A stretch of 64,000 bases of DNA from Kordiimonas laminariae. Its GTDB lineage: Bacteria > Pseudomonadota > Alphaproteobacteria > Sphingomonadales > Kordiimonadaceae. The DNA lies in NCBI RefSeq assembly GCF_023008165.1, contig NZ_JAKQZA010000005.1:62001-126000 (forward strand), in the 5' to 3' direction. Position numbers and translations under genes: made by a program. The number at the start of each line of letters is the position of its first letter. The stretch's first letter is position 1. The notes beneath the pieces were generated by a model. It was given only the letters and a program-made list of their open reading frames with translations, did no database searches and was not told the DNA's origin. Below are positions 3,060-19,753 of the stretch, in pieces.

Positions 3060-3258
3060 ACTATCCCTCATCACCTTAAATCGCCTCAGTACGTTAACTG
3101 CCTGCCTTAATAGGACAAGTAAAAAACATGCGATTTTCAAGAAATTAGATACAATTTTAGGAATTGGATAACGAATCAGCTATAGTGTGATCTTGTTCAG
3201 GGAGAATTTTTCTATCTGTATTGGGGGAGTGGGGTGTATTCTACGAGGGAGCCACACG

Positions 3259-4995
3259 ATGCAGGACGGCATTTATAGCAAACATCTGGGCGATGATCCC
3301 CACCCGGTCATTGATATCGGGAAATGGAAGCAAACTGCCAATATTCTTTCGCGCCTGTATGGGGCTTCCTGCGGTACGATTGTTCAGCTTTATGAAGGGG
3401 AATTTAAAACCGTTGTCGTAAGCGATAACGAGGATAATTTCCTGAAAGAAGGGGATAGTTGGTCCCTTAAAATTGAAAGCTTTTGCCGGCGCATTATGGA
3501 AACCGGTGAAGGGCTTTATGTGGAAAATGCCCCCTGCATTGAAGAATGGAAACATATCCCCCCAGTGGCAGACGGGCCTGTGGTTTCCTATCTCGGGCTT
3601 CCGATTTACTGGCCGGATAACACGCTTTTTGGCACTATCTGCGTGATTGATACCAAAGGCACCGAGTATGACGATACACTTGTTGATCTGATGGAGCAGT
3701 TCCGCGACCTGATTTCAAAAGACCTGCAGCTTATCGAGAATTTCGAACGCATTCTTTCGCTTGCTGTGAAAGTGGCGGGGGATGCGACCCTTGAGGAGAT
3801 CCTCACACTCTTGACCCGCGCACAGGAAGCAACTGCTATTGATAAAGGCATGCGCTGTTCCGTGCTGCTGCTTGAAGATGGGCGGTATCTGCGCACAGGC
3901 GCAGGGCCAAGCCTGCCGCAGTTTTATATGGATGCGATAGACGGGGTGGAAATTGGCCCCAATGTGGGGTCTTGCGGCGCGGCCGCTTATAGCGGTGAGA
4001 TGGTGATTGTAGATAATCTCAACACTCATCCAAATTGGGAACCATTTAGGGAGCTTACACAAGAGGCCGGGCTTCACGCCTGCTGGTCTTTCCCTATTCT
4101 GTCCTCCAAAGGTGAAGTGATGGGGGTTTTCGCGGCTTATTTCCCTGAACCTAAAACACCTTCCGAACAGCAGATTGAAAATATTCAGGCAACCACCTTT
4201 AACCTGAGAATTGCCATTGAGCATCACCGGATGCTGGATGAGCTTGAGGAAGCTAAAAAAGTGGCTGAAGTTGCCAACCAGGCCAAGCTCGATTTCCTCA
4301 ACAATATGAGCCATGAGCTTAGAACGCCGCTTAATGCCATCATCGGGTTTTCTTCCATTATGGAGGAAGGCATTATGGGCCCGCTCAATAATGCAAAATA
4401 CGAAGAATATATCCATGATATCAAAACATCCGGCCAGTTCCTTCTGGATATGGTGAATGATATCCTCAAGATTTCAAAGATTGAAGCTGATGATATGTCT
4501 CGTACACCGCAGCCGGTGGAAATTAAGGAAATTATTGAAGAATGCGTACATATCCTGCGGCCGATCACTGCGGAAAAATCCCTCACCTACAGTTCTGAAA
4601 TTCCAGAGGCAACACCAACCATTTATGCTGATCCACGCCACCTGAAACAGGTAACACTAAACATCCTTACAAACGCCGCGAAATACACCTCTGAAGGTGA
4701 TACCATTACTATTTCAGCAGCAGAGACAGAGGATGCTGTAAAATTATTGATCACTGATCATGGCCCCGGGATTTCCGAAAAACATCTGGAAGAGATTTTC
4801 GTACCCTTCAAGCAGTTTAATGATGGCTATATTTCATCAGCCGGCGGTGTTGGGCTCGGGCTTCCGCTCGCGAAAGCACTTATGGAGAAAAACGGCGGCG
4901 GGCTAGAGATTGAAAGTGATGTGGGTAAAGGCACGCAGGTGGTTATCCACGTGCCTCAAATCGTTGCTGCCAAGCAGAAAACCTACGGAAATTAA
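3259..4995 (+). CDS. Sensor histidine kinase with two GAF domains
   Basis: Soluble sensor kinase of 578 residues. The ATG at 3259 is preceded by an ACGAGGGA ribosome site; an in-frame start at 3187 lacks one. Order: GAF domain (about 20-165), second GAF domain (about 180-330, with GSCGAAAYSG and the SFPILSS core), HisKA with phospho-acceptor His352 in NMSHELRTP, then HATPase_c with the N box (TNAAKYTSEG), G1 (DHGPGIS) and G2 (GVGLGLPLAKA). No membrane segment or receiver domain is present, so it should sense a cytosolic ligand or redox cue. No response regulator lies nearby, so the partner is unknown. Its end overlaps the convergent ABM-domain gene by 4 bp. Confidence 0.88.
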   Translation: MQDGIYSKHLGDDPHPVIDIGKWKQTANILSRLYGASCGTIVQLYEGEFKTVVVSDNEDNFLKEGDSWSLKIESFCRRIMETGEGLYVENAPCIEEWKHIPPVADGPVVSYLGLPIYWPDNTLFGTICVIDTKGTEYDDTLVDLMEQFRDLISKDLQLIENFERILSLAVKVAGDATLEEILTLLTRAQEATAIDKGMRCSVLLLEDGRYLRTGAGPSLPQFYMDAIDGVEIGPNVGSCGAAAYSGEMVIVDNLNTHPNWEPFRELTQEAGLHACWSFPILSSKGEVMGVFAAYFPEPKTPSEQQIENIQATTFNLRIAIEHHRMLDELEEAKKVAEVANQAKLDFLNNMSHELRTPLNAIIGFSSIMEEGIMGPLNNAKYEEYIHDIKTSGQFLLDMVNDILKISKIEADDMSRTPQPVEIKEIIEECVHILRPITAEKSLTYSSEIPEATPTIYADPRHLKQVTLNILTNAAKYTSEGDTITISAAETEDAVKLLITDHGPGISEKHLEEIFVPFKQFNDGYISSAGGVGLGLPLAKALMEKNGGGLEIESDVGKGTQVVIHVPQIVAAKQKTYGN

Positions 4996-5362: not shown

Positions 5363-5698
5363 TTAAATCTTCTTCACAAACTTAGATTTGAGGCCCATGG
5401 AGCCAATGCCGTCGATCTTGCAGTCAATATCATGGTCACCATCCACAAGGCGGATGCTTTTCACCTTGGTTCCTACTTTCACCACAGAGGACGAACCTTT
5501 GACTTTCAAATCCTTGATCACTGTTACCGCATCACCATCCTGAAGGATGTTGCCAACCGCATCACGCACCACATTTTCATCCGCTGCTTCAGCCGCATTC
5601 GGGTTCCATTCATGGGCACATTCAGGGCACACCAGAAGGGCGCCATCCTCATAGGCATAAGGGCTTGCACATTTTGGGCACGGCGGTAGATCGCTCAT
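5363..5698 (-). CDS. yjdM: PhnA/YjdM family zinc-ribbon protein
   Basis: A 111-residue protein with an N-terminal zinc ribbon (Cys7-x2-Cys10 and Cys24-x2-Cys27) followed by the PhnA/YjdM C-terminal domain ([15 protein letters not shown], then [19 protein letters not shown]). Despite the historical name PhnA it is not a phosphonoacetate hydrolase; the cellular role of the family is poorly defined. It sits between the acylase gene upstream and the ABM-domain gene downstream on the same strand, with short spacers compatible with one transcript. Length and Cys spacing match the family. Confidence 0.85.
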
Positions 5699-5760
5699 CA
5701 GGTAATCCTTTTACTATTCACACGCGGGTATAAGCCGCTGCCCCTTATTCCACAAGCTTC

Positions 5761-7884
5761 TTAAAGCCTTCGGTCGGATGTTTTCTCGGCTTCAAGTGCC
5801 TCAAGCGTCATGGGGAGCTTGCGTTCTTTCTCTGCCGTAAACAGCGGTGCCTGATCCGCATAATGAGGAGAGCTGCTATCAAGGGTCGCACTGCCAAAAT
5901 TATGGATGCTGGTTGAATTCACAGTGCCGTCCGGTGCCCAATCAACAAACATGATATAGCTGTCACCCGCCGTGGCCTTAAGTTTGCCTGTGTCTGCGTT
6001 GATATCACTATAAACGGCCCTCAGCACATCAGGGGCACCAGATATAGGCCACGTGAAATCACCTCGTACCAGTTTGCTCACTTCTCCCCACTCCGGGTTC
6101 AAAACACCGTAAAATTTACTGATGAAAGCCACCACACCTTCAAAAGTTTCACGCACATCAGGTTTTGGTTCACCGCGCATTTCCGCAAGAATAAACGGTG
6201 TGGCGGTTAACACACCAAGAGCTGCCTGACGGTTTTCTTTCCCGGTGGAAAGATCCCACTTGGTGAGTATTTTTTGGGCCTCAGCTACTTCACTGCCTTC
6301 GGGGAGCTGAAGCGCCAACACCTCAGCCAGCACTTTCGCCGCCACTGAATCCCTGTGGTAACTGTTGTTATATTTGTATGTTTTGAATTCCTCAGCCGTG
6401 ATGCTCTCATCCGCACCAAACAGGTCCCTGATCATCAGCGCTCGGTTCGTCATACCAGTTTCAATGCCCATGCTCGGCGTGAAATCACCTGGCTGCGCCT
6501 GTCCTTCGCCCACACTTGCAACAAACGGTGTGTTGTTCGCGTTGAAAACAAAGCCTGAAGGTGGGTTCACCGTGCGCGGTGTTTTACTGAAAGGATGATA
6601 TTCCCGCCAGATAAGATCTGAGCGGTCCCCCGGCAGCAAACCGCGCCAATCCACACCTTCAATACGCTTCGGCATCATAGCGTTATAGTAATGGGCGATA
6701 TTGCCGTCCTTATCCGCATAAATATAATTGATACTAGGCATCGCGCCCATACCAAGGGCGGCTTCAAAATCTGCCTGCGTACGGGCTTTATTAAGCCGGA
6801 TATTCATATCAAGTGTACGCACTTCATCCATCCCTGCCCAGCGGAGCGCAAACGCCCCTTTTTTGTTCCTGAATACCGGACCATGTTCTGAATAATAAAT
6901 CGGCTCTTCAAATGTCCAGCGGATAGGGCCGAGGAAATAAATTTCAATCTCCGCTGTGCGGATTTCAAAATCACTCCACTCGCCATCAAGCCTATACTGA
7001 TTGGGGTTATCAGGGTTTATCACCAGCTTATATACATCAACCAAATCCGGCTTGTTCACCGTGTTTGACCACCCGAGGGTGGGGCCATGCCCATGAAGAA
7101 TAACAGGGGAACCGGGGAAGGTACTGCCAGCCATATCCCAGCCTTCGTTTGATTTCACCCTGGCTTCATACCAGGCCACAGGGCCAGTGAGCGGCTGGTG
7201 GGAATTAACCAGCAAGCGCGTGTGTCCATCCGCTGAACGAGAAGGTGCCACCGCAATACCCTGGCTGCCAATATCAGGCTGTGGTTTTTCCGTTGGCTCA
7301 AGCGCTGAAGATTTATCAAGTCCAGTGCCGTAGCTGCCATCCGCCGCCGCAGCCACTGTCTGATCAAAGCCGTAAAACAGTGGGGTTTTAAAGGTGAAGC
7401 CTGCCACCACATCCTTGCCTGTTACAGGCAGAAGGTATGGCGATATAAGCCCCGGGTTTTCAGAAGCAAAATAATTAAGGCCGTCCGCATAGGCTTCAGC
7501 GTGCGCACGTGCCTCTGCGCTCAGGCGGGTATCATAGCCTGCGTTTACAACGTCCCAAACCCGCATCATCTGGATCAGATAATCGGTTTTTGAGGCTTCC
7601 ACCCCTTTAAGGGTCGCAAGCTTGCCGCGAGTGGCAAGAAGCACATCCTGCATGGTGGCAAAATCATCTTCCGCATGAGCGAAGGCAAGGCCAAAGGCCA
7701 CATCAATATCCCGGTCACCGTAAATATGCGGCACGCCGTAAGCATCCCGAATAATGCGGACATCGTATTTTTCGTGAAGGTTAGAGAAAGAAGCCGGATC
7801 AACAGAGCTGCGCATGGTAAGAGCAAAGCCCGCATACACCACAACGAATAGGATCAAAACCACCCCAAGGATTTTCTTCAGCAT
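5761..7884 (-). CDS. Penicillin acylase family protein (possible acyl-homoserine lactone acylase)
   Basis: N-terminal nucleophile hydrolase exported across the inner membrane. The first 23 residues (MLKKILGVVLILFVVV and on) form a signal peptide or anchor. The alpha-chain region carries the usual RDAYGVPHIYG and AFAHAEDDFATMQ motifs. Autocleavage is predicted at Gly206/Ser207 in DIGSQGIAVAPSRS, making Ser207 the nucleophile of the beta chain; NSHQP follows, as in acylases that take long acyl chains. In the family, substrates include beta-lactam side chains, aculeacins and N-acyl-homoserine lactones; the NSHQP signature favours acyl-amide or AHL substrates, but this is inference. A GGGAGCAGG site precedes the ATG. 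At 707 residues it is full length. Confidence 0.85.
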   Translation of the reverse strand: MLKKILGVVLILFVVVYAGFALTMRSSVDPASFSNLHEKYDVRIIRDAYGVPHIYGDRDIDVAFGLAFAHAEDDFATMQDVLLATRGKLATLKGVEASKTDYLIQMMRVWDVVNAGYDTRLSAEARAHAEAYADGLNYFASENPGLISPYLLPVTGKDVVAGFTFKTPLFYGFDQTVAAAADGSYGTGLDKSSALEPTEKPQPDIGSQGIAVAPSRSADGHTRLLVNSHQPLTGPVAWYEARVKSNEGWDMAGSTFPGSPVILHGHGPTLGWSNTVNKPDLVDVYKLVINPDNPNQYRLDGEWSDFEIRTAEIEIYFLGPIRWTFEEPIYYSEHGPVFRNKKGAFALRWAGMDEVRTLDMNIRLNKARTQADFEAALGMGAMPSINYIYADKDGNIAHYYNAMMPKRIEGVDWRGLLPGDRSDLIWREYHPFSKTPRTVNPPSGFVFNANNTPFVASVGEGQAQPGDFTPSMGIETGMTNRALMIRDLFGADESITAEEFKTYKYNNSYHRDSVAAKVLAEVLALQLPEGSEVAEAQKILTKWDLSTGKENRQAALGVLTATPFILAEMRGEPKPDVRETFEGVVAFISKFYGVLNPEWGEVSKLVRGDFTWPISGAPDVLRAVYSDINADTGKLKATAGDSYIMFVDWAPDGTVNSTSIHNFGSATLDSSSPHYADQAPLFTAEKERKLPMTLEALEAEKTSDRRL

Positions 7885-8525: not shown

Positions 8526-8554
8526 AGCCAGCGCTTTTGCGCTGGCTTTTTTTT
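8526..8554 (+). terminator. Intrinsic terminator of the SRPBCC gene
   Basis: Perfect 9-bp stem AGCCAGCGC / GCGCTGGCT with a TTTT loop, followed by an eight-T run on the plus strand. It lies 10 bp after the SRPBCC stop and just before the convergent CoA-ligase gene ends. Confidence 0.9.
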
Positions 8555-10172
8555 ATTCTTCCCGCAGCTTAAAGCGCTGCAGTTTACCAGACTGGGTTTT
8601 CGGCAAACTGTCTCGGAATTTTACCGAGCGCGGATATTTATAGGGTGCGATGGTGTTTTTCACGAAGGTCTGGATATCAAGGGCAAGAGTATCCTCTGCC
8701 TCAACACCACTCTTTAAAACGATGTGCGCTTCTACAAGCTGGCCACGTTCTTCATCAGTGGCACCCACCACCGCACACTCTGCCACCGCTTCATGCTTTA
8801 AGATCGCCTCTTCCACCTCTGGGCCAGAGATATTATACCCCCCTGACTGGATCATATCATCCACCCGCGCCACATAGATGAAACAACCATCATCACTGCG
8901 GGTAAAAGCATCCCCTGTGATATTCCAGCCGTCTTTCACATATTTCTGCTGGCGATCATCCGACATATAGCGGCAGCCGGTTGGCCCCTTAACCACAAGC
9001 CTGCCTACAGTGCCATTTGGCACTTCAAGGAAGTTTTCATCCATAATTTTTGCACTGTAACCAGAGACGCACATGCCCGTGCAGCCGGGCTTGGCATCTT
9101 CCATCCGGTTGGAGATAAAGATATGAAGCAGTTCTGTGGCGCCAATACCGTCTACGATCGGCACCTTCATTAGGCTATGCCACAGATTATAAACATCCGC
9201 AGACAGGGTTTCCCCCGCTGATACCGCAACCCTTAATGAGCGCATCTGGTAAGCACTGTCTTTCTCAGAAAGCATCACCCGGTATGCTGTTGGAGCCGTA
9301 AAGCAGATGGTAGCCTGATACTGCTCAATATATTTGATGAGATTGAGCGGAGATGCATCTTCAAGCAGCACCGCAGATGCCCCAAACCGGAGCGGGAAAA
9401 CCGCCAAACCGCCAAGCCCAAAGGTGAAGGCAAGCGGTGGGGAGCCAATAAATACATCACTTTCCTTCACCTGAAGGACTTCATCCGCATAGCCGTCCGC
9501 AATGATCAGCAGGTCCCGGTGGAAATGCATGGTCGCTTTCGGTGCCCCTGTTGTGCCCGAGGTAAAGCCCAGAAGCGCTACATCATCACTTGCGGTTTCT
9601 ACCGCATTAAATGTTACAGGTTTGCAGAGCGCCAACCTATCCAACTGGCCTTCGTGCCCTGTCATGCCGTCAAAGCTGATCACGCTTTCAAGCATTTCTG
9701 ATGCTGCGTGGCAGAGGTTCATTTCTTCAATGATACGCATTTCGCAGAGCGCCAGTTTAATCTCTGCTCTCTCAACAATCTTCGCAAGCTCACCAGCTCT
9801 CAGCATCGGCATGGTGTTCACTGCCACTGCACCCACTTTGGTAACCGCAAGCCACACCGCCACCATAGCCGGATTATTCTGCGAACGAATAAGCACACGG
9901 TTCCCTGGTTTCACCCCAAAATCATCCACCAGTGTGTTAGCGATACGGTTCGACCAGTCCGCCAGTTCTTTATAGGTGCGCATCCGTCCGTGCCCGATAA
10001 GAGCGATACGGTCGCCAAAACCTTTTTCCACCATACGGTCCGTTAGCTCATAAGCCGCATTCAGTTTTTCCGGATACTGGAATTTAGTCTCATCCAGCAC
10101 CAAATCTGGCCACTGATCCTGAGGCGGCAGATTATCCCGCGTGAAAGTATCGGTATGTCCCGTATATGACAT
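8553..10172 (-). CDS. 2-aminobenzoate (anthranilate)-CoA ligase, benzoate-CoA ligase family
   Basis: ATP- and CoA-dependent aryl-CoA synthetase of the ANL superfamily, proposed to activate anthranilate to 2-aminobenzoyl-CoA. Visible motifs: the ATP-binding loop TSGTTGAPK (around residue 205), the GIGATEL motif A5, the hinge region (YVARVDDMIQSGGYNI) and the catalytic Lys530 in KTQSGKLQR. Length 539 residues, standard. It is the last gene of the operon that starts at about 14.3 kb, and the downstream monooxygenase/reductase and kynureninase lie in the same locus, which is why anthranilate rather than benzoate or another aryl acid is favoured. A GGGGAG ribosome site sits right after a small intercistronic hairpin. 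Substrate assignment is contextual. Confidence 0.82.
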   Translation of the reverse strand: MSYTGHTDTFTRDNLPPQDQWPDLVLDETKFQYPEKLNAAYELTDRMVEKGFGDRIALIGHGRMRTYKELADWSNRIANTLVDDFGVKPGNRVLIRSQNNPAMVAVWLAVTKVGAVAVNTMPMLRAGELAKIVERAEIKLALCEMRIIEEMNLCHAASEMLESVISFDGMTGHEGQLDRLALCKPVTFNAVETASDDVALLGFTSGTTGAPKATMHFHRDLLIIADGYADEVLQVKESDVFIGSPPLAFTFGLGGLAVFPLRFGASAVLLEDASPLNLIKYIEQYQATICFTAPTAYRVMLSEKDSAYQMRSLRVAVSAGETLSADVYNLWHSLMKVPIVDGIGATELLHIFISNRMEDAKPGCTGMCVSGYSAKIMDENFLEVPNGTVGRLVVKGPTGCRYMSDDRQQKYVKDGWNITGDAFTRSDDGCFIYVARVDDMIQSGGYNISGPEVEEAILKHEAVAECAVVGATDEERGQLVEAHIVLKSGVEAEDTLALDIQTFVKNTIAPYKYPRSVKFRDSLPKTQSGKLQRFKLREE

Positions 10173-10186
10173 TGGCTAACTCCCCT

Positions 10187-10256
10187 GCCGCACCCTGCGG
10201 CGTATTTCCCAGAAGCTAATCGGTACAGTTACTTACCCAGCAAACCGATTAATCGG
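10187..10256 (-). promoter_or_regulatory. Intercistronic inverted repeats between RidA and CoA-ligase genes
   Basis: Two structures lie in the 76-bp spacer. One is a tight hairpin GCCGCA-CCC-TGCGGC (10187-10201) directly upstream of the ligase ribosome site. The other is an 8-bp inverted repeat (10217-10224 with 10244-10251) whose distal arm belongs to a 12-bp perfect palindrome CCGATTAATCGG (10245-10256) overlapping the RidA stop. No T-run follows, so this is more likely an RNA-processing or translation-tuning element, or a binding site, than a terminator. Confidence 0.4.
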
Positions 10257-10647
10257 CGCTGATTACACAAGTGGTTTCGATTTCAATCTTTGCGCGGTCT
10301 TCCATAAGGCCGGAGACCTCAACACATGCCATAGCCGGATAGTTTTTCCCCATCACATCCCGGTATGCCTGCCCCACTTCACGGAGCCGCGTGAGATATT
10401 CCTGTTTGTCGGTTATATACCAGGTCATGCGCACCATATGCTCAGGCCCGGCGCCACCTTCAGCCATGATAGCCTTGGTATTCAGAAGCACCTGCCGAAA
10501 CTGCTCAACAAGATCATCAGACTGGAATTCTTCATTTTCATCCCAACCCACAACGCCTGCAACAAACACCATATCACCTGAAGCTTTGATACCGTTTGAA
10601 TAACCTTTGGGGCGCACCCAACCTTCTGGCAAAAGCGTTTTCATCAT
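10249..10647 (-). CDS. RidA/YjgF family protein, putative enamine/imine hydrolase
   Basis: A 132-residue RidA-fold protein. Conserved elements are SGDMVFVAGVVGWDE, the helix LVEQFRQVLLNTKAIM, and the C-terminal MACVEVSGLMEDRAKIEIE strand pair. RidA enzymes hydrolyse enamines and imines. The position of the catalytic arginine in archetypal RidA (the R of PAR-xCVEV) is Met106 here, so this is a divergent subgroup. The context is telling: the monooxygenase/reductase of this pathway is expected to yield 2-amino-5-oxocyclohex-1-ene-carboxyl-CoA, an enamine, and this protein could release its amino group as ammonia. That is inference. It overlaps the upstream thioesterase gene by 4 bp, indicating translational coupling. 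Confidence 0.8.
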   Translation of the reverse strand: MMKTLLPEGWVRPKGYSNGIKASGDMVFVAGVVGWDENEEFQSDDLVEQFRQVLLNTKAIMAEGGAGPEHMVRMTWYITDKQEYLTRLREVGQAYRDVMGKNYPAMACVEVSGLMEDRAKIEIETTCVISAD

Positions 10648-11084
10648 ATCATCTCCGTCTCGCCAGTATCCACCACATACTCAGCGAGCATTACCCGCAT
10701 GGGGCCGCTGAACGGTATGGATTTCATGGTCTCAAGATTGGTCTGCACAATTGTAAGGATAGCGGACAGGCGCACTTCACCGCCACACAGCGCTTTCACG
10801 CAGATGGTCGCGGATGATGTACCAAGCCGCTCGATCACCAATCCCATATCAAGCATATCATCGCAGTAACTGGGTTTCTGGAACTCCACCGCGATTTGCA
10901 CCGTGGGCACGCCGACCTTCTCAATCGTATGCATCTGCCCGAAAGGGCGCTCCATTGCTTCTCGGAAGAAATCCTCTACGGTATCATTGATCATTTCAAA
11001 ATAGCGCGGGTAATAGACAATGCCCACCGGGTCTGTGTGCCCGTGGCGGATCAATTGTTTGCGTGTAAATATCCGGCCTGCCAT
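10644..11084 (-). CDS. Acyl-CoA thioesterase, 4-hydroxybenzoyl-CoA thioesterase (4HBT) family
   Basis: Hot-dog fold thioesterase of 146 residues. The ATG at 11084 is preferred because it has an AGGA ribosome site 8 bp upstream and sits 4 bp after the stop of the acyl-CoA dehydrogenase gene. The active-site segment HGHTDPVGIVYYPRYFEM carries the family Asp in the DPxGIVxxPxY signature of 4-hydroxybenzoyl-CoA thioesterases, followed by the long central helix. In this operon it could hydrolyse a dead-end aryl-CoA or release a late pathway acid from CoA. The stop overlaps the RidA start by 4 bp. Confidence 0.82.
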   Translation of the reverse strand: MAGRIFTRKQLIRHGHTDPVGIVYYPRYFEMINDTVEDFFREAMERPFGQMHTIEKVGVPTVQIAVEFQKPSYCDDMLDMGLVIERLGTSSATICVKALCGGEVRLSAILTIVQTNLETMKSIPFSGPMRVMLAEYVVDTGETEMI

Positions 11085-11088
11085 AATT

Positions 11089-12270
11089 CTATCCTGCCGC
11101 TTCAGCAATATGAGCGCGGGCAATCACCACTTTCTGCACCTCTGATGCCCCTTCATAAATGCGGAGCGCCCGGATTTCCCGATATAATTCTTCCACCTTC
11201 ACGCCGGAGACCACACCCATGCCGCCAAAGATCTGCACTGCCCGGTCAATCACCTGCTGGGCCTGATCAGTGGCATGCAGTTTCGCCATTGCGGCCTCGC
11301 GGGTTACCCGTGGCTGGCCGCTGTCTTTTGCCCATGCAGCGCGGAAAATCAGCAGTGCTGACGCATCAATATCAAGGGCACTTTCACCTATCATGGCCTG
11401 CACGAGCTGAAGATTATGGAGCGGCGCGCCAAACAGTTCGCGGCTGTCTGCCCGCTTCACGGCTTCATCAAGCGCGCGGCGTGCAAACCCAAGGGCCGCT
11501 GCACCCACGGTAGAACGGAAAATATCAAGGGTCGCCATCGCTGCCTTAAAACCGCCACCCAACTCACCCAGCTGGTTCCTTGCTGGCACGCGGCAGTTGT
11601 TGAATTTAAGGGTAGCAAGTGGGTGCGGTGCTATCACATCAATACGCTCGCTGGCATCAAGCCCTTCGGTATCCGCATCGAGCACAAAAGCTGTCAGGCC
11701 GCGTGCACCCTCACCGGGGCCAGTGCGCGCGAACACTACATATTGGTCTGCAATACCACCGTTCGAGATAAAGGTTTTTGCCCCGCTGATGATATAGTGA
11801 TCACCGTCCAGTTCCGCCGTGGTGCGGGTTGCCGCCACATCTGAACCAGATTCCGGTTCCGTAAGCGCAAAAGCTGCGCAAAGCCGGCCTTCACCAACGC
11901 CCGTAAGATAGTGCGCCTTCGTTTCCTCAGAACCGTATAGCGAGATTGTGCCAGAACCCAGCCCCTGCATGGCAAAAACAAAATCTGCAAGCCCGGAATA
12001 ATACGCAAGCGTCATCCGGATAAGGCATAAGGAACGCACATCAAGGCCATCATGAACGCCGCCATAAGCTTTCGGCACCGCATAGCGAGTGAAACCACCC
12101 TCTGCCAGAAGGGTAAGGATCGCCCTGCAGCTGCCGTCCAGGTCGTGATGTACATCTCGGCTTTCCACAAATGGCACCAATACTTCCTGGCACCATGCAT
12201 CCAAACGGCGGGCTAAATCACGGTGGTGGTCTTCAAGAAACGGCCAGTTGAGAAAGCTCATATCCGCCAT
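11089..12270 (-). CDS. Acyl-CoA dehydrogenase family flavoprotein
   Basis: FAD-dependent alpha,beta-dehydrogenase of 393 residues. The ATG at 12270 is chosen because GAAGGG lies 8 bp upstream; it begins 2 bp after the crotonase stop. Family signatures in order: the N-terminal helical domain, [22 protein letters not shown] (flavin/substrate loop), [17 protein letters not shown], the C-terminal helical domain, QIFGGMGV, and the catalytic-base segment [10 protein letters not shown]. In the aerobic 2-aminobenzoyl-CoA pathway an acyl-CoA dehydrogenase is expected for oxidation of the alicyclic or ring-opened CoA ester; the exact substrate is unknown. Confidence 0.87.
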
Positions 12271-12272
12271 GA

Positions 12273-13088
12273 TCAATTCCCTTCAAACACCGGTTTTTCT
12301 TTGGCAACAAAAGCGTGGTAGGCGCGCTCAAAATCCTTGGTTTGCATGCAAATGGCCTGCGCCTGTGCTTCTGCCTCAATGGCTGTATCGAGGCTCATAT
12401 CCCATTCCATATTCAACTGGTTCTTGGTCATACTGTTGGCAAAGGTTGGGCCGCTGGCGATTGAACCCGCCAGCTTATAAGCTGCTTCCATCAACTCGCC
12501 TGCTTCCACCACGTCATTGAAATATCCCCACGCCAAGCCTTCATCAGGGGACATGCCTTTCCCGGTATAGAGAAGCTGTGACGCTCGGCCTTGACCGATA
12601 ATGCGCGGCAGGACCGCACATGCGCCCATATCGCAGCCCGCAAGACCAACCCGGTTAAAGAGGAAATATGTTTTCGAAGCCTCTGAGGAAATACGGAGAT
12701 CAGCGCACATAGGAATGATAGCACCTGCGCCCGCTGAGATACCGTCTACTGCCGCAATAACCGGCTGCGGGCAACTACGGATCGCTTTCACCAAATCGCC
12801 TGTCATGCGGGTGAAATCCATCAGTTCGGTCATATCCATGCCCACAAGCGGGCCGATAATATCATGCACATCACCGCCAGAACTGAAGTTACCGCCGTTC
12901 GGTGCAAACACCACAACCTTCACTTCCTTAACGTAGGTAAGGGCGCGGAATGTATCCCTTAGTTCCGCATAAGACTGGAATGTTAAAGGGTTTTTCCGCT
13001 CAGGGCGATCAAGCCTTACTGTCGCAATACCATCTTCAAATTCCCACAGGAAATGTTCCGGCTTATAAGTTTGCGGATCAAAGCTCAT
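12273..13088 (-). CDS. Crotonase-fold protein (enoyl-CoA hydratase family) without the hydratase glutamates
   Basis: A 271-residue crotonase-superfamily enzyme acting on a CoA ester. The ATG at 13088 has a GAGGAG site 7 bp upstream; the earlier frame start at 13130 lies inside the MarR gene. The oxyanion-hole strands ([10 protein letters not shown] and [12 protein letters not shown]) are present. Measured against rat enoyl-CoA hydratase, the Glu144 position is Ile124 and the Glu164 position falls at Phe144, so both hydratase glutamates are absent. An Asp (Asp153, GLAGCDMGA) occupies the site used by 4-chlorobenzoyl-CoA dehalogenase Asp145. A hydrolytic or ring-cleaving role is more likely than plain hydration (inference). 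It overlaps the upstream MarR stop by 11 bp. Confidence 0.85.
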
Positions 13089-13563
13089 CGTCTGTCTCCT
13101 CGGTGCCCCCCATGTCGGCGGCATACTCAATTTTGGATAATAAGGTCAGCAGCTGTGCCAGTTCTTCATCTTTGAAGTTTTTGAAAAACTCACCCACCCA
13201 TGCTTCATGTTCCTTGGCCATTTCTTCAAACCGGCTTTTACCTTCACGGGTGATATAAAGAAGGTGCGTACGCTTGTCTGTCGGCATTGGCGCCTTCAGG
13301 ATCAAACCATCCTGCTGCAACCGGTTAGCAAGCCCCGTGAGGTTTCCGTTGGAAACCATCAACATGCTGGATAGTTCCCCCATGGTTACGCCGTTTGGGC
13401 GGCGGTAAAGTTCCGCCAGCACATCAAAACGAGGAAGCGTGGTTTCAAAATCTTCCCTGAGGCGCGAACGCACATGTTTTTCCACCTTACCAGTGGATGA
13501 TAGCATCTTAAGCCAGATACGGAGATTCTGTTTTTCCCGTCGGCGGGTGCGCGGCTGTTCCAT
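13078..13563 (-). CDS. MarR family transcriptional regulator
   Basis: Winged-helix repressor of about 161 residues, probably sensing an aryl-CoA or aromatic pathway intermediate. A basic N-terminus (RTRRREKQN) precedes the dimerisation helices; the DNA-recognition helix region is [26 protein letters not shown], then the wing around [15 protein letters not shown], and an acidic C-terminus. The ATG at 13563 shares its A with the SDR stop (TGATG), so translation is coupled to the SDR gene, and the gene ends inside the start of the crotonase gene. Being inside the operon it probably controls, it is likely autoregulatory; the palindrome at 14332-14349 is the obvious candidate operator. Confidence 0.88.
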
Positions 13564-14312
13564 CACATCACTTCCCCACCTGCAACATTAATGCTTTGTC
13601 CGGTGATAGACCTGCTTTCATCACGGCAAAGCCAAAGTGCTGCATTTGCGACTTCTTCCGGCTCAATAAGGCGCTTTTGCGGGTTACCTTTCACCAGTTC
13701 ACCGAGGGCTTCTTCTTCGCTGCGCCTGGTTTTTGTGGTGATATTCTCAATAGCATCCGCCACAATTTGAGTATCTGTAAAACCAGGGCACACACAGTTA
13801 GCAGTGATGCCTGTGCCCGCAAGTTCAAGCGCTAAGGCCTTAGTCATCCCCACCACGCCGTGCTTGGCCGCACAGTAAGCCGAGGTGTAGGCATAGCCTT
13901 TGTGCGCCGCCGTGCTGGCAATATTGATAATTCGGCCCCAGTTTTTCACTTTCATGGGCGCAAGTGCTGCCTGCGTACAGAGGAAAGTGCCGGTGAGATT
14001 CACACCGAGCATCTGCGACCAGATTTCTTCAGACATTTTATGGAAAGGCGCCGTTAATGCAGCACCTGCATTATTGATCAGGATATCCACATCACCAAGA
14101 CCCGCGAATACTTCAGTGACATGCCCGGCATCTGTCACATCAAGGGAAATGGCTGAGATATTATCGCTGGTGGAGGCAAATTTCTGAAGGCGGTCCAGAT
14201 TACGGCTGGCAATAGTAACACTGGCGCCTGCATGTGCGAGAGACTGTGCAATAGCAGCACCAATACCTGTGCCACCACCTGTTACCAGTACATGTTTTCC
14301 ATCTAGCGCCAC
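13563..14312 (-). CDS. SDR family NAD(P)-dependent oxidoreductase (3-hydroxyacyl-CoA dehydrogenase-like)
   Basis: Classical short-chain dehydrogenase of about 249 residues. Motifs: the cofactor loop TGGGTGIG, the NNAG strand (LINNAGAALTAPF), the Ser of the triad in INIASTAAH, Tyr and Lys in YTSAYCAAKHG, and PGFTDTQ after the active site. In this operon it most likely oxidises a hydroxyacyl-CoA or alicyclic alcohol intermediate. The GTG at 14312 is preferred: a GGAGGGG site lies just upstream and the predicted transcription start falls near 14328, so the ATG at 14330 cannot serve; the ATG at 14324 remains possible. It is the first gene of the seven-gene minus-strand operon reaching to 8553. 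Confidence 0.85.
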   Translation of the reverse strand: MALDGKHVLVTGGGTGIGAAIAQSLAHAGASVTIASRNLDRLQKFASTSDNISAISLDVTDAGHVTEVFAGLGDVDILINNAGAALTAPFHKMSEEIWSQMLGVNLTGTFLCTQAALAPMKVKNWGRIINIASTAAHKGYAYTSAYCAAKHGVVGMTKALALELAGTGITANCVCPGFTDTQIVADAIENITTKTRRSEEEALGELVKGNPQKRLIEPEEVANAALWLCRDESRSITGQSINVAGGEVM

Positions 14313-14331
14313 GAACCCCTCCATTTTCATA

Positions 14332-14363
14332 TATTTTATATATAAAATAATAATAGCTGTCAA
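14332..14363 (-). promoter_or_regulatory. Near-consensus sigma-70 promoter with palindromic operator for the aminobenzoyl-CoA operon
   Basis: On the minus strand a -35 box TTGACA (14363-14358), a 17-bp spacer and a -10 box TATAAA (14340-14335) precede the SDR gene. An 18-bp perfect palindrome, TATTTTATATATAAAATA (14332-14349), covers the whole -10 box. A transcription start near 14328 would leave a leader of about 16 nt holding the GGAGGGG ribosome site. This is the expected architecture for repression by the operon's own MarR protein; the pairing is inferred, the sequence elements are seen. Confidence 0.7.
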
Positions 14364-14418
14364 TTTACCCTTATAATTCAATAAATTTATTCATTAACCA
14401 TACTACATTCTATTTTTA

Positions 14419-14512: not shown

Positions 14513-16897
14513 GTGAAAATCTCCATTATCGGTGGCGGGCCGGGTGGGCTCTATTTCGCGTTACTCACTAAAAAAGCACGCCCCAACTGGGATATTGAGC
14601 TTTATGAGCGAAACCGCGCCGACGATACCTTTGGTTTTGGCGTTGTATTCTCTGATGCTTCCCTTGATGAATATGAAAGTCGGGACAAAGAGACCTACAC
14701 CCGCATGCGGGAAGAGTTTGCTTATTGGGATGACATCAATATCGCCTTCAAGGGCGAGATGATGACCTGTGAAGGTAATGGCTTTTGCGGCACATCCCGC
14801 GTGCATCTCCTGAATGTATTCCAGGATCGCTGCCGCGAGTTGGGTGTGAAAATGTATTTCGAGGAAACCATTGATCCAGTCACGATTGAGACTCGGTTTG
14901 CTGATTCTGATATGATTCTTGTATCCGACGGCATTGGCTCCGCCATACGCGAAGCCCATAAAGGGCCTGAAGGCTTTGATGTCAGCGTTTCCATGAAAAG
15001 CAACCGCTTCTGCTGGATGGGCTCCACCCGTCCGCTTTCTGATTTTACGTATTTCTTTAAAGAGACCGAACACGGCGCCATTTGCGCGCACACCTACCAG
15101 TACGAAGACAAGCACTCCACCTGGATTTTTGAAATGTCTGATGCCTGCTGGCAAGCGCAAGGGTTTGAGGAATTTGATGAAGAAGGCAGCGCTAAAAAAC
15201 TGGAAGCCCTTTTTGCAGACGAACTTCAAGGCCATCCTCTGATCCTGAACCGGTCCCATTGGCGGCAGTTCCCTCGTATTTTCTGTAACAACTGGTCTGT
15301 GGGCAAAATGGTAATTTTGGGAGACGCAAAAGCTTCCGCCCATTTCTCAATCGGTTCCGGCTCCAAGCTGGCGATGGACTGCGCCATCGGCCTTTATGAA
15401 GCTGTGATCAAACACCTTGAGACAGACGGGCATGAAGCAGCCTTTGCCGCTTATGATAAAAGCCGCAGAGTGCCAGCCCAGATCGTACAGCATAATGCGG
15501 ATGTATCACTTGCATGGTTCGAGCATATGGACCGCTCGTGGGATATGGACCCCTACCAGTTCGCCATGGTGGTAATGTGCCGGGCAAAATCAGTGACATA
15601 TGATAATCTGATCGTGCGGGACCCAGTCTTTATCGAAGCCGCAGATACCGAATGGTATGAACGGTATTTCCGTGAAAGCGGTTATGATTACCGCAAAAGT
15701 CGCCCTACACCCATGTTCACCAAATTTAAATTACGGGATATGGAACTGAGGAACCGCACGGTTATGTCCCCCATGGCGCAATATAGCGCTGATGAAAACG
15801 GCAATCTGACCGACTGGCATTTTGTGCATTATAGCGGCGCAGCGCGCGGCGGCATGGGTATGATGTTCACAGAAATGACCTGCCCATCGCCTGATGCCCG
15901 CATCACCCTTGGTTGCCCCGGCATGTGGTCAGACGAGCAAGAAGCCGGGTGGAAGCGGATTGTGGATTTTGTGCACGAAAACACAGGCACCAAAATCTGT
16001 ATGCAGCTGGGGCATTCAGGCAGGAAAGGCTCCACCCAGTTAGGGTGGGAGAAAATGGATTACCCCATTGAAGATGGGAGCAAAAACTGGCCGCTGGTCT
16101 CTGCGTCTCCTATTCCATATTTTGATGGTATCAGCCAAACACCCAAGGAACTTGATGAAGCTGGCATGGCAGCCATCACAGCTGATTTCGTGCAGGCAGC
16201 AGAGCGGGCGAACCGTGCTGGGTTTGATATGCTCGAGCTTCACTGTGCCCACGGCTATCTACTCGCCAGTTTCCTGTCACCGCTTACCAACACCCGCACG
16301 GACAATTATGGCGGCAGCATAGAAAACCGGATGCGGTTTCCTCTTCAACTATTCAAAGCAATGCGCGCGGTATGGCCCGAGGAAAAACCAATGTCTGTAC
16401 GTATATCAGCCAGTGACTGGAAAGAAGGCGGCATCTCCGAGGCCGATACCTTCGCTATCGCTGACGCCTTTTCTGAAGCGGGTTGCGATTTGATCGATGT
16501 ATCAGCCGGGCAAACAGTGCCAGACCAGAAGCCCATTTATGGCCGCATGTTTCAAGCCGGTTTTTCTGAGGCGATCCGCAATGTGCCAAAAGTGGCAACC
16601 ATGGCGGTTGGGGCTATCACGGATGCTGGGCAGATCAACACCCTTCTTCACACCCGCAGGGCTGACCTGGTTGCCATGGGCAGGCCCTTTATGTGGAACC
16701 CCTTCATTGTGCGGCAGGCAGCGGCCTGGTACGGCGTAAAGCTAGAGAATGATGACTGGGAAAAACAGTATCAAGCCGGGCAGGCGCAAGCTTATTCCGT
16801 ACAGCCTAAAGCGCGCATACAGCAACTTGAATGGCAGCACAAAGCAAGGCCAAAGCGGCATCACAGCTTTGCAAAAAACATTGAAGATCAGGCATAA
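14513..16897 (+). CDS. 2-aminobenzoyl-CoA monooxygenase/reductase (FAD monooxygenase fused to an old-yellow-enzyme domain)
   Basis: A 794-residue fusion. Residues 1 to about 390 are a class A flavin monooxygenase: GxGxxG loop IGGGPGGLY (7-14), the VVFSDASLDEYE region, and the second FAD motif VILGDAKASAHFSIGSGSK. From about 398 an FMN-dependent old-yellow-enzyme domain follows (FTKFKLRDMELRNRTVMSPM, then ELHCAHGYLLASFLSPLTN and NYGGSIENR). This arrangement matches 2-aminobenzoyl-CoA monooxygenase/reductase known from Azoarcus evansii, which hydroxylates and then reduces the ring; salicylyl-CoA 5-hydroxylase-type fusions are the main alternative. Context (kynureninase, CoA ligase) favours anthranilate. 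GTG start with AGGGAG upstream; a strong terminator follows. Confidence 0.88.
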   Translation: MKISIIGGGPGGLYFALLTKKARPNWDIELYERNRADDTFGFGVVFSDASLDEYESRDKETYTRMREEFAYWDDINIAFKGEMMTCEGNGFCGTSRVHLLNVFQDRCRELGVKMYFEETIDPVTIETRFADSDMILVSDGIGSAIREAHKGPEGFDVSVSMKSNRFCWMGSTRPLSDFTYFFKETEHGAICAHTYQYEDKHSTWIFEMSDACWQAQGFEEFDEEGSAKKLEALFADELQGHPLILNRSHWRQFPRIFCNNWSVGKMVILGDAKASAHFSIGSGSKLAMDCAIGLYEAVIKHLETDGHEAAFAAYDKSRRVPAQIVQHNADVSLAWFEHMDRSWDMDPYQFAMVVMCRAKSVTYDNLIVRDPVFIEAADTEWYERYFRESGYDYRKSRPTPMFTKFKLRDMELRNRTVMSPMAQYSADENGNLTDWHFVHYSGAARGGMGMMFTEMTCPSPDARITLGCPGMWSDEQEAGWKRIVDFVHENTGTKICMQLGHSGRKGSTQLGWEKMDYPIEDGSKNWPLVSASPIPYFDGISQTPKELDEAGMAAITADFVQAAERANRAGFDMLELHCAHGYLLASFLSPLTNTRTDNYGGSIENRMRFPLQLFKAMRAVWPEEKPMSVRISASDWKEGGISEADTFAIADAFSEAGCDLIDVSAGQTVPDQKPIYGRMFQAGFSEAIRNVPKVATMAVGAITDAGQINTLLHTRRADLVAMGRPFMWNPFIVRQAAAWYGVKLENDDWEKQYQAGQAQAYSVQPKARIQQLEWQHKARPKRHHSFAKNIEDQA

Positions 16898-16941: not shown

Positions 16942-18186
16942 TTAAGTCACCTTATTCACTGTCTGGTATTTTTCCTGCTGATAAGATTTGCTTTTAAGAA
17001 TATCCCGCAAAATTTCCACCGCATGATAAAGGTTTTCAAACGACATAAAGAGCGGCGAGAAACCAAACCGCATTCGGTCTGGCGCACGGAAATCACCAAT
17101 CACACCCATATCAATCAGGTTCTGCATGATGGCGTAACCGTCTTTGTGTCTGAAAGAGATATGCGCCCCACGGTCGGACGCATCTTGGGGTGACACCACT
17201 TCAAGGCCCAACCCACCGCATTCCTGCAATACAAGCGCTTGGAAGGTAGCGTTAAGCTTCTGCTGCTTCTGAAACCGCACGCTATTTTCAGTTTCCAACA
17301 TGAGATCAAGCCCTGCTTCAAGCGCTGAACCACCCAGCACAGCGGTAGTCCCTGTAAGCATACGGCCAATGCCTTCTGTTGGCTCAAACTCATCTACGAA
17401 CTGAAACGGGGCCTTGTGACTGAACCACCCGCTGATGGGGTTTTTCATCGCCGCATGATGGCGTTTGGCTGCAAACAAAAAAGCCGGCGCCCCGGGGCCA
17501 CCATTTAAGTGCTTGTAGCCGCAGCCCACCGCAAAATCAGCCTTCGCTGCATTCAGTTCAGTTTCCACAGCCCCCACCGAATGGCTCAGGTCCCATACCG
17601 TCAAAGCACCGCATGCATGGGCTTTTTCCGTGATTTCAGCCATTGGAAATATCTCACCAGAGACATAATGCACATGGGTGAGCAGAACCACAGCGGTATC
17701 ATCACCGATGGCATCCATAATGTCGGCGCGCTCATGGGTCTCAACGGTATAGTGCTCACCGGTTAACTGGCGCACACCATCAATGATGTATAGGTCCGTC
17801 GGGAAATTCCCCTTCTCGCTGATGATTTTTCTGCGGCCGGGGTTCAGGTGCAATGCGGAGACAAGGGTTTTAAAAAGATTTACAGACGTGCTGTCAGCAA
17901 GCACCACTTCCCCATCATCCACGCCGATCAGCTTAGCGATTTTATTCCCCACACGGTGGGACATATCGTACCATCCGGCTGTGTTCCAGCCTCGGATCAG
18001 CTCATTGCCCCATTCATTTTCCACAGCACTTGCCATCCGCTTTTTCGCATCTTTCGTGAGCGGCCCAAGCGAATTACCGTTCATATAAATAACGCCCTCA
18101 GGGATAAGGAACCTGTCTGCATATTCTTTGAGAGGATCAGCCGCATCCATGGCTTTCAGAGCATCAAGTGTGAGTTTTTCAGCCAT
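16942..18186 (-). CDS. kynU: Kynureninase
   Basis: PLP-dependent hydrolase cleaving L-kynurenine to anthranilate and L-alanine in the cytoplasm. At 414 residues it is typical. Diagnostic segments: MNGNSLGPLTKDA near the N-terminus, the WNTAGWYD motif, the cofactor-binding VWDLSHSVGAVE, and the Schiff-base Lys225 in GCGYKHLNGGPGAP. The ATG directly abuts the kynB stop (TAAATG) with GAGGAG upstream, so the kynA-kynB-kynU order forms a tight operon. The product is the substrate of the CoA ligase at 8553-10172. Confidence 0.96.
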   Translation of the reverse strand: MAEKLTLDALKAMDAADPLKEYADRFLIPEGVIYMNGNSLGPLTKDAKKRMASAVENEWGNELIRGWNTAGWYDMSHRVGNKIAKLIGVDDGEVVLADSTSVNLFKTLVSALHLNPGRRKIISEKGNFPTDLYIIDGVRQLTGEHYTVETHERADIMDAIGDDTAVVLLTHVHYVSGEIFPMAEITEKAHACGALTVWDLSHSVGAVETELNAAKADFAVGCGYKHLNGGPGAPAFLFAAKRHHAAMKNPISGWFSHKAPFQFVDEFEPTEGIGRMLTGTTAVLGGSALEAGLDLMLETENSVRFQKQQKLNATFQALVLQECGGLGLEVVSPQDASDRGAHISFRHKDGYAIMQNLIDMGVIGDFRAPDRMRFGFSPLFMSFENLYHAVEILRDILKSKSYQQEKYQTVNKVT

Positions 18187-18819
18187 TTATTTGCTCCTCA
18201 AAACAGCGCGAACAGGGCTGGCATCCGCCCCTTTTATCTTAAGTGGCAGCGCGATAAGTTCATATTCGCCTTCAGGCACATCATCCAAGACAAGGCCTTC
18301 AAGAATGGCCATTCCGTTTTCCTTCATCGCCATATGGGCATGCAGCTCTTTTGATGTTTCAGGATCAAGAGACGGGGTATCAACACCGATAAGGCGGCAA
18401 CCATTTTCGGCCAGATACCGGATAAGCCCGGCATCTACCGCACGGAACCCTTCAGGCCAGCGGCGGTGTGGGAATGTTTCAAAAGTTCGGATCAGCACAC
18501 GCTCAAGCGTTCCAGCCTTATTGAGTTGCGGCTTGAGTTCTTCAAGCGTGATATCCCCCGTGCCGTCCAAAGCATATACAAGCACACAGTCACCCATATA
18601 AGTTTCGAGCGGTGCTTCAGCGATATCTTTCCCAGCTTTATCATAGTGGGAAGGCGCGTCTGCATGAGCCCCTGAATGGGTGGAAAGCGTGAGCTTTGAC
18701 ACAAGCACAGGACAGCCATCTTCAATTTCCCACGTCGCTTCAATACCGAAAGGCGTGTCTCCCGGCCACATGGGTGTCTCTGCGCTCAGGGTCTGGCTGA
18801 TATCATATGTTTTCGTCAT
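18187..18819 (-). CDS. kynB: Arylformamidase (kynurenine formamidase, cyclase-like family)
   Basis: Metal-dependent hydrolase converting N-formyl-L-kynurenine to kynurenine and formate. The 210-residue length and the metal signature His48-xxx-His52-x-Asp54 (STHSGAHADAPSHY) identify the bacterial KynB family; a second conserved segment is LIGVDTPSLDP, with the C-terminal LIALPLKIKGADASPVRA closing the fold. It is the middle gene of the kyn operon, starting 8 bp after the kynA stop and touching kynU. Confidence 0.95.
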   Translation of the reverse strand: MTKTYDISQTLSAETPMWPGDTPFGIEATWEIEDGCPVLVSKLTLSTHSGAHADAPSHYDKAGKDIAEAPLETYMGDCVLVYALDGTGDITLEELKPQLNKAGTLERVLIRTFETFPHRRWPEGFRAVDAGLIRYLAENGCRLIGVDTPSLDPETSKELHAHMAMKENGMAILEGLVLDDVPEGEYELIALPLKIKGADASPVRAVLRSK

Positions 18820-18827: not shown

Positions 18828-19673
18828 CTAAAGGCCTGTACGCACATTCCAGAGCTCAGGGAAGAAGCGGAGATCAAGCGCTTTCACAAGGAAAGAAACA
18901 CCGCCTGTGCCGCCCGTACCTTTGCGGTATCCGATGATCCGCTCCACGGTTTTCATATGGCTGAAACGCCACATCTGAAATTGGTGCTCAAGATCCACAA
19001 GCTTCTCTGCAAGCTCATATAATTCCCAATATTTACCCGTTTCGCGGTAAACAGTCGCCCACGCGGCTTCCACCGCATCCGAAGGCTCATAAGGCAGGGA
19101 CCAATCCCTGTTCAGGCATTCTTCAGGGATATTAAAACCGCGCTTTGAAAGCAGCTCGATACAGAGATCATAAATGCTTGGTGCTTCAAGCGTTGCTTTT
19201 AAAGGCTCATAACGCTCAGGCTTACTGCGGTGCACTTCAAGAAGCTTGGCGTTTTTATTGCCGAGCGCAAATTCGATGGCTCGGTACTGGAAAGACTGAA
19301 AGCCCGAACTTTGGCCCAGTTTATCTCTGAAACTGGAGTAATCAGACGGCGTCATGGTGGAAAGCACATCCCAGCTTTGCCGCAATTGTCCCTGAATACG
19401 GGAGATACGCGCCAGCATCTTAAACGATGCCCCTAGATTATCGTTTTTGATATGCTCCATAGCCGCCGCAAGCTCATGGATACAGAGCTTCATCCACAGC
19501 TCAGATGCCTGATGGATCACCAGAAACAGCATTTCATCATGGCTATCAGTGCGTGGGTTCTGGCAATCAAGCAGCTTGTCCAGATTCAGATAGCCGCCAT
19601 AGCTGATATCCTGATCCCAGTGAATGTTTTCACTTTCCACAGCCCGAAGGTCTGATTTTCCCGTCTCTGTCAT
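18828..19673 (-). CDS. kynA: Tryptophan 2,3-dioxygenase
   Basis: Haem dioxygenase that opens the indole ring of L-tryptophan, the first and committing step of the pathway. The ATG at 19673 is selected because AGGAG lies 8 bp upstream and the N-terminus then matches the family; a longer frame to 19742 would enter the divergent regulator's promoter region. Motifs: YGGYLNLDKLLDCQ, the substrate pocket HQASELWMKL, SGFQSFQYR, and the haem-ligand His239 in FSHMKTVERIIGYRKGTGG. About 281 residues. First gene of kynABU, divergent from a LysR gene. Confidence 0.96.
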   Translation of the reverse strand: MTETGKSDLRAVESENIHWDQDISYGGYLNLDKLLDCQNPRTDSHDEMLFLVIHQASELWMKLCIHELAAAMEHIKNDNLGASFKMLARISRIQGQLRQSWDVLSTMTPSDYSSFRDKLGQSSGFQSFQYRAIEFALGNKNAKLLEVHRSKPERYEPLKATLEAPSIYDLCIELLSKRGFNIPEECLNRDWSLPYEPSDAVEAAWATVYRETGKYWELYELAEKLVDLEHQFQMWRFSHMKTVERIIGYRKGTGGTGGVSFLVKALDLRFFPELWNVRTGL

Positions 19674-19727
19674 ACGCTTAACTCCTGCAGTTTCTCTAAA
19701 AATAGCAAAAGCACCATTTGAAGGCAT

Positions 19728-19753
19728 TTCATAAATATGCATGATATAATGAA
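19728..19753. promoter_or_regulatory. Candidate LysR operator between kynA and the LysR gene
   Basis: An inverted repeat TTCAT-N16-ATGAA with an ATGCAT centre lies in the 107-bp divergent spacer, about 55 bp before the kynA start and 28 bp before the regulator start. LysR regulators typically bind an imperfect dyad in such a position. The site is AT-rich and the fit is loose. Confidence 0.35.

Follow-up and report, generated by a model that had tools for sequence, protein, structure and literature searches.

A Rid-family gene in the window, by which we mean the whole 64,000-nucleotide stretch of Kordiimonas laminariae DNA analysed here, probably encodes a pathway-dedicated Rid-type deaminase of a CoA-bound cyclic enamine in the CoA-ester route of anthranilate degradation. 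The protein carries methionine (Met106) where archetypal RidA has arginine, and its gene nearly always occurs in genomes that encode the 2-aminobenzoyl-CoA monooxygenase/reductase (ACMR), a co-occurrence which suggests, at the level of sequence, that it supplies the missing nitrogen-removing step. The initial annotation had proposed it as a dedicated enamine hydrolase of this route; linkage supports its membership of the pathway well, but the deamination itself stays a prediction. For one clade of Rid proteins that lack the arginine, the analysis points to a main partner enzyme and to a candidate substrate that makes chemical sense. If the reading is true, the deamination step of the CoA-ester anthranilate route would be filled, and that of tryptophan as well where kynurenine genes feed it, the loss of the arginine would be explained, and the residue signature would let genome annotation name the gene.

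The Rid gene and its operon

A RidA-fold gene had been placed at 10249-10647 with no strand given. It is an intact 132-aa open reading frame on the minus strand, running from an ATG at 10647 down to 10249, and the plus-strand reading of the same interval is interrupted by stops. Against Pfam PF01042 (YjgF/UK114 superfamily) it scores 76.4 bits (E 2.4e-21) with a cut-off of 27.3, and an AlphaFold2 monomer model built on an alignment of 58 sequences (mean pLDDT 96.5, pTM 0.90) finds its best Foldseek match among solved Rid structures at E 8.1e-13. Having passed the PF01042 gathering score and having a Rid fold, the window protein is a member of the Rid superfamily. The narrower label "RidA-family" holds as far as the superfamily and the conserved glutamate are concerned, but archetypal RidA identity was rejected, given the Met in the Arg105 column and a score of 60.3 bits (E 2.1e-16), below the cut-off of 106.25, with the NCBIfam model TIGR00004 ("Rid family detoxifying hydrolase"). 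The RutC model TIGR03610 gave 35.5 bits, under its cut-off of 169.1, and the NCBIfam scan of the window protein returned no model above its cut-off; for two more members of the clade the same scan gave no match at E<=1e-10 (L093) and TIGR00004 at 49.4 of 106.25 bits (L119). No solved structure lies near this clade, the best match of the clade profile, termed A2, being 5v4f (E 2.1e-22). The genome to which the window belongs holds four PF01042 genes; in the residue-106 column, Arg is found in two of the remaining three and Trp in one.

Translational coupling inside an operon, also claimed at the outset, can be read directly from the letters. The thioesterase gene ends in GAG ATG ATA TGA and the Rid gene begins with ATG ATG AAA, so that ATGA is common to both, and a GGAG lies just upstream of the Rid start. 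The minus-strand run comprises, in order, genes for a short-chain dehydrogenase/reductase, a MarR regulator, an enoyl-CoA hydratase, an acyl-CoA dehydrogenase, the thioesterase, the Rid protein and a benzoate-CoA-ligase-like protein, with the ACMR fusion divergent from it (Table 1). The true start of the thioesterase probably lies inside the listed frame, the ligase is presumed to be a 2-aminobenzoate-CoA ligase, and the enoyl-CoA hydratase possibly serves ring opening or a beta-oxidation step. ACMR was recognized by a FAD monooxygenase half (PF01494) and an old-yellow-enzyme half (PF00724) on a single chain of 794 aa; it stays below the cut-off of NF006101, a model named for a bifunctional salicylyl-CoA 5-hydroxylase/oxidoreductase. 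The locus is a 2-aminobenzoyl-CoA (abm) cluster placed to take anthranilate from tryptophan; because genes for kynureninase, kynurenine formamidase and tryptophan 2,3-dioxygenase (16942-19742) adjoin it, tryptophan probably feeds the abm route. Downstream of the operon lies a gene for a 707-aa protein (5761-7884, minus strand) that we take to resemble the penicillin-acylase family.

Table 1. Features of the abm cluster and the adjoining kynurenine genes, in window coordinates
Feature	Coordinates	Strand	Evidence
Benzoate-CoA-ligase-like acid-CoA ligase	8553..10172	-	TIGR02262 370.1 bits, just below cut-off 375.25; PF00501
Met106 Rid-family protein, 132 aa	10249..10647	-	PF01042 E 2.4e-21; model pLDDT 96.5; Rid fold; Met106 in the Arg105 column
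4HBT-type acyl-CoA thioesterase-like	10644..11123	-	PF13279 E 4.3e-07; stop overlaps Rid start (ATGA)
Acyl-CoA dehydrogenase	11089..12276	-	PF00441 E 9.2e-42
Enoyl-CoA hydratase/crotonase family (PRK08258)	12273..13130	-	NF006107 453.9 bits, above cut-off 330
MarR-family regulator	13078..13566	-	PF01047 E 7.7e-11
Short-chain dehydrogenase/reductase	13563..14381	-	PF13561 E 4.5e-55
ACMR: 2-aminobenzoyl-CoA monooxygenase/reductase-type fusion	14513..16897	+	NF006101 976.2 bits, below cut-off 1078; PF01494 + PF00724
Kynureninase (makes anthranilate)	16942..18186	-	TIGR01814 266.1 bits, above cut-off 246.4
Kynurenine formamidase (arylformamidase)	18187..18819	-	TIGR03035 260.6 bits, above cut-off 223.05
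Tryptophan 2,3-dioxygenase	18828..19742	-	PF03301 E 5.1e-68

Linkage of the Rid gene to ACMR

The tie between the Rid gene and the monooxygenase/reductase proved tight in two samples, which share at least one genome (G281, the genome of L177). The first consists of the best 80 matches of an ACMR alignment scanned against genome contigs, whose titles name Pseudomonadota, Actinomycetota, Gemmatimonadota, Myxococcota, Anaerolineae and others. Of these 80 records, 58 have a Rid gene no more than 10 kb from ACMR, as do 41 of the 49 with both flanks of at least 9 kb. Chance proximity was rejected, since about 3% would be expected from the PF01042 gene density of the class, applied here to records of several phyla. 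In each of the eight full-flank exceptions the window protein finds a match (E<=1.3e-26) elsewhere in the genome. Among the 22 of the best 80 records that have no near Rid, 20 come from genomes holding a Met-bearing Rid beyond the stretch examined, three of these being weak (G399, E 1.3e-26; G395, 3.5e-17; G403, 1.0e-13); for G389, where a stop interrupts the top-scoring copy, the Met reading comes from a weaker second one. A Met-bearing Rid was missing in two of the 80 ACMR genomes, both metagenome bins, namely that of L169, with only an Arg-type Rid, and that of L234, with no match.

The second sample covers 385 genomes of the class. The Rid (E<=1e-25) was found in 71 genomes and ACMR likewise in 71, with both present in 64 genomes from 40 families; ACMR was counted only with its monooxygenase half, and matches to the reductase half only (G210, G104, G378) were left out. 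Fisher's test on this co-occurrence gives 1.7e-56, a value computed without regard to relatedness that overstates independence because the sampled genomes are related. Where both genes are present, the distance between them is at most 12.1 kb in 37 genomes; they are farther apart on one contig in 6 and on separate contigs in 21, and the 27 pairs beyond 12.1 kb are due in part to fragmented assemblies. Seven genomes have the Rid without ACMR (G011, G067, G095, G125, G187, G196, G298), and in one of them, G196, abm genes stand beside the Rid on an 8.2-kb contig. Another seven have ACMR without the Rid (G025, G064, G224, G226, G231, G277, G351); in G277 a Rid gene is cut by the contig end 2.7 kb from ACMR. 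Weaker Met-bearing relatives, our group D, occur in four ACMR-less genomes (G358, G280, G359, G093) and, taken with the seven Rid-only genomes, indicate a clade wider than this pathway. Kynureninase is near only 7 of the 47 abm-linked Rids of the class sample; the link is therefore to the abm genes and not to this PLP enzyme, and a kynureninase-linked role against damage of the 2-aminoacrylate type was rejected.

Specificity was controlled with relatives of ACMR that have no reductase half. Eleven genomes of the class (G298, G102, G208, G376, G107, G093, G004, G033, G162, G260, G070) contain a single-domain relative of the monooxygenase half and no fusion; the relative in G070 is only partial, and five of the relatives are at 32-34% identity. 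The Rid (E<=1e-25) is present in one of the eleven, G298, as against 64 of the 71 fusion genomes (Fisher 9e-8, ignoring relatedness), and G093 has a weak Met-bearing relative (E 1.1e-16). Salicylyl-CoA 5-hydroxylase gives an aromatic product. If this holds for the single-domain enzymes as well, the Rid goes with the reductase half, which is the maker of the non-aromatic enamine.

Several other arrangements were seen. Weak, separate Met-bearing Rids (L143, L144, L145, L148, L149) come from five ACMR-less genomes, one of which, G187, has a closer Rid as well, and enolase-superfamily dehydratase-like genes lie near the weak Rids L145, L146 and L149. Four Rids away from the abm cluster (L078, L081, L094, L103) stand beside what we take to be branched-chain-type ABC transporter genes. 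A tandem Rid array was seen in L321 (G025:C9:14650-17260), where six PF01042 domains follow in a row in two long reading frames of three domains each.

Residue 106 and the proposed deamination

Met106 of the window protein aligns with Arg105 of E. coli RidA (PAMACVEV vs PARSCVEV), just as had been noted, and Glu122 falls in the column of RidA Glu120. Among the best 80 ACMR records, from several phyla, Met106 is present in all 57 near-ACMR Rids that could be read, and actinobacterial and Gemmatimonadota members keep it at only 31-42% identity to the window protein. Nine columns are invariant over the 58 aligned sequences of A2 (P7, G15, G31, Q49, Y84, M106, L114, A119, E122), from which L221, a cut Rid with residue 106 unread, was left out. 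With E122 and M106 both invariant, the proposed water-positioning acid appears to be kept and the carboxylate clamp swapped for one specific residue. We also surveyed PF01042 in 31 genomes of the class, which hold 117 such genes; 12 were left out and three more loci gave no aligned domain, leaving 102 distinct aligned domains. Adding three references from E. coli and two domains that were read twice gives 107 rows, in which the residue-106 column reads R 44, S 20, M 10, N 8, W 8, A 6, T 4, G 3, D 2, Q 1 and L 1. Every M row is a match of the window protein at E<=1.2e-31, so that Met is confined to this clade among the 102 domains of these 31 genomes; with the 57 of 57 near ACMR, this led us to reject Met as a random substitution.

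Residue-106 counts were taken from alignments throughout. In that of the class sample, the abm-linked Rids have M in 44 of 46 readable rows (T once, V once), group B in 28 of 29 (S once) and group C in three of five (I twice), and the 17 rows of the weak group D are divided into M 6, A 6 and S 5; Met is not absolute away from ACMR. A phylogeny of the Rids found beside such fusions, suggested in the initial annotation as a check, brings the abm-linked rows into one group of 59 rows (SH-aLRT 97), which contains all included abm-linked, second-paralogue, group B and group C rows and takes in five weak Met-bearing relatives besides. It is a quick tree of 156 rows and 122 columns, column 106 left in, and its rows are partial, covering 35 of the 58 in A2 and, of the 22 group B rows that do not belong to the second-paralogue set, 7.

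In RidA, Arg105 binds the carboxylate of the substrate, and neither RidA nor RutC is active once this Arg is lost (PMC4433059, PMC5619798, PMC8113886, each in part), the R104A replacement being the one that inactivates RutC (PMC8113886, in part). The portions available of PMC5619798 and PMC8113886 treat this residue as the determinant of deaminase activity and report none so far for Rids that lack it; one such protein is named there as tested (PMC5619798), and few have been tested overall. Glu120, in turn, is conserved across the Rid subfamilies (PMC4433059, in part). The Arg-less subfamilies, Rid4-Rid7, appear without known activity in the same portions of PMC4433059, PMC5619798 and PMC8113886, with Trp at 105 in Rid4 and Rid7 and a variable residue in Rid5 and Rid6 (PMC4433059, in part). 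In our clade the Arg is absent and Met nearly fixed; we compare it with these subfamilies by description and assign it to none of them. Met106 can be read against the earlier suggestion of a new substrate class as well as for it, because Arg-less Rids have so far come without reported deaminase activity and R104A kills RutC in the sources just cited.

As the initial annotation expected, the ACMR product is a CoA-bound enamine, named as 2-amino-5-oxocyclohex-1-ene-1-carbonyl-CoA in PMC4539516 and PMC3534580 (both in part). In the route that we propose, the ligase would convert anthranilate into 2-aminobenzoyl-CoA, which ACMR would hydroxylate and reduce to this enamine. The Rid protein, probably a trimer by analogy with its family, would then tautomerise and hydrolyse the enamine to 2,5-dioxocyclohexane-carbonyl-CoA and ammonia, with the invariant Glu122 predicted to position the water. 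A crotonase-type or thiolytic step could next open the ring of the resulting 2-keto thioester, with beta-oxidation to follow by other enzymes of the operon. Arg105 of RidA serves to hold the free carboxylate of 2-imino acids; since the carboxyl next to the enamine carbon would here be a CoA thioester, a carboxylate-binding Arg may be dispensable, and Met allowed or even preferred. A CoA ester of composition C7H8O4 was seen only in anthranilate-grown Arthrobacter and is possibly cyclohexanedione-carboxyl-CoA (PMC3534580, in part), and if so, deamination precedes ring opening in this organism. Formic acid was used to quench those samples, which were then run at pH 3.5 (PMC3534580, in part), so the ester could also be a product of the acid work-up.

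A different account would have the enamine hydrolyse fast enough unaided, leaving the Rid to damage control, that is, to clearing a reactive side product, be it the enamine or an over-hydroxylated by-product. RutC offers a precedent, as the step that it accelerates proceeds in water too, and rutC is dispensable for uridine use in vivo (PMC8113886, in part); moreover, a number of genomes have the Rid gene away from ACMR. We nevertheless consider damage control unlikely, since a Met-bearing Rid is found in 78 of the best 80 ACMR genomes (residue 106 of L221 unread), a tighter association than would be expected for an optional helper. The chemistry points the same way: the enamine is unstable below pH 5 (PMC3534580, in part), and as a beta-amino thioester, that is, a vinylogous carbamate, it would be expected to hydrolyse slowly at neutral pH.

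Sister group, known Rid systems and annotation

In seven genomes the abm-type Rid and ACMR are accompanied by a further, divergent Rid (L119, L128, L129, L130, L133, L134, L135), and these seven Rids group together with one from the ACMR-less genome G125 (SH-aLRT 99). A class I benzoyl-CoA reductase gene set is present at five of the eight sister-group loci (L119, L128, L129, L130, L134); L136 has a bcrC match only, and no genes of the set were found within the stretch examined at L133 and L135. At L128 the set scores above its cut-offs, given in brackets, with bcrC at 659 bits (421), dch at 393 (292.5), oah at 653 (464) and the 2-oxoacid:acceptor oxidoreductase at 556 (483). The sister Rid at this locus (L128:9751-10131), like those at L119, L129, L130 and L134, is divergent and carries Met. 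These neighbourhoods suggest a clade at work on dearomatised rings bound to CoA, in aerobic as well as anaerobic routes. A more general rule might follow, in which deaminase activity depends on Arg105 only where the substrate has a free carboxylate, and the Met clade deaminates CoA-bound alicyclic enamines, serving the aerobic (ACMR) as well as the anaerobic (benzoyl-CoA reductase) dearomatisation of aminobenzoyl-CoA; this we put forward tentatively, as a possibility on which we would not yet rely.

The same loci could be taken to mean that the Met-bearing Rid acts not on an amine at all, and is instead a tautomerase or hydration helper for CoA-bound alicyclic enols or ketones released by dearomatising enzymes. 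At five of its eight loci the sister sub-clade stands with bcrC, dch, oah and the 2-oxoacid oxidoreductase, genes of a pathway in which an amine is not obligatory, and the absence of a carboxylate-binding Arg would fit any CoA ester; seven of the eight members, however, come from ACMR-encoding genomes, so that aminobenzoyl-CoA may be their substrate too, and we regard an enol or ketone substrate as improbable. That the protein is a non-catalytic chaperone, regulator or ACMR scaffold, its lost Arg meaning lost catalysis, is most improbable, for although chaperone or ribonuclease activities are reported for other Rid proteins, an invariant Glu122, a Met106 fixed in 58 aligned sequences and a confident fold model suggest an active site that is conserved rather than decayed.

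As a probable deaminase, the window protein can be set beside three characterized Rid systems. It resembles RidA (E. coli/Salmonella RidA, TdcF; 2-iminobutanoate/2-iminopropanoate deaminase) in fold and in the glutamate (E120 = E122), and enamine/imine deamination, the chemistry of RidA, is here only proposed; RidA has Arg105, whereas the window protein has Met106, falls below the TIGR00004 cut-off and is tied to one catabolic gene set. A Rid enamine hydrolase for aromatic degradation already exists in 2-aminomuconate deaminase (AmnE/AmnD, NbaF), a Rid-fold deaminase dedicated to an enamine of such a pathway (PMC6742747, PMC6449761, both in part). This enzyme keeps the Arg (Arg117 in AmnE: PMC6742747, in part), where the window protein has Met in the RidA-Arg column. 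It acts on a free dicarboxylate arising after ring cleavage, in contrast to the CoA ester before cleavage that we propose, and is distant in sequence (6izh, E 1.6e-07 with the clade profile A2). RutC, the 3-aminoacrylate deaminase, is an operon-dedicated Rid that speeds one step of a pathway (PMC8113886, in part), which is likewise the role proposed here, but it keeps Arg104 (R104A is inactive), and the window protein, without the Arg, reaches 35.5 of 169.1 bits on the RutC model.

Among the literature found, the nearest earlier idea comes from PMC6449761 (in part), which predicts Rid genes in the regulons of BoxR and CatM/BenM and proposes that they help to use a benzoate derivative beside a CoA-dependent benzoate pathway. 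An example from the BoxR regulon is Tmz1t_3130 of Thauera sp. MZ1T (Betaproteobacteria); this gene was predicted from regulator sites with no substrate named, and we compare it with our clade by description only. Among the matches listed from open-licence literature, as titles and abstract openings, none assigns this deamination step to a Rid protein. In 2001, Schuehle et al. reportedly described aerobic 2-aminobenzoate clusters of Azoarcus (Aromatoleum) evansii with a CoA ligase, ACMR, beta-oxidation genes and a MarR regulator, and their abstract is said to name a "putative translation inhibitor protein". "Translation inhibitor" is an old name for the Rid family, and we take the Azoarcus gene to be probably this Rid.

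Public records name these genes in other ways. In the plasmid cluster L365 (S. meliloti pSmeAK21a) the Rid is annotated as "RidA family protein" and the ACMR-type fusion (2259-4580) as "bifunctional salicylyl-CoA 5-hydroxylase/oxidoreductase", and in a second plasmid cluster, L366, the corresponding labels are "Enamine/imine deaminase" and "NADPH dehydrogenase" (fusion at 5507-7792). Judged by length and context, both fusions are probably misnamed. The abm set is carried together on pSmeAK21a, and genes for a 3-hydroxyacyl-CoA dehydrogenase and a thiolase adjoin the Rid gene. This cluster (L365:1-12583) is seemingly a whole aerobic anthranilate (abm) set. An IS21 element lies directly past it, and the plasmid has been typed as conjugative.
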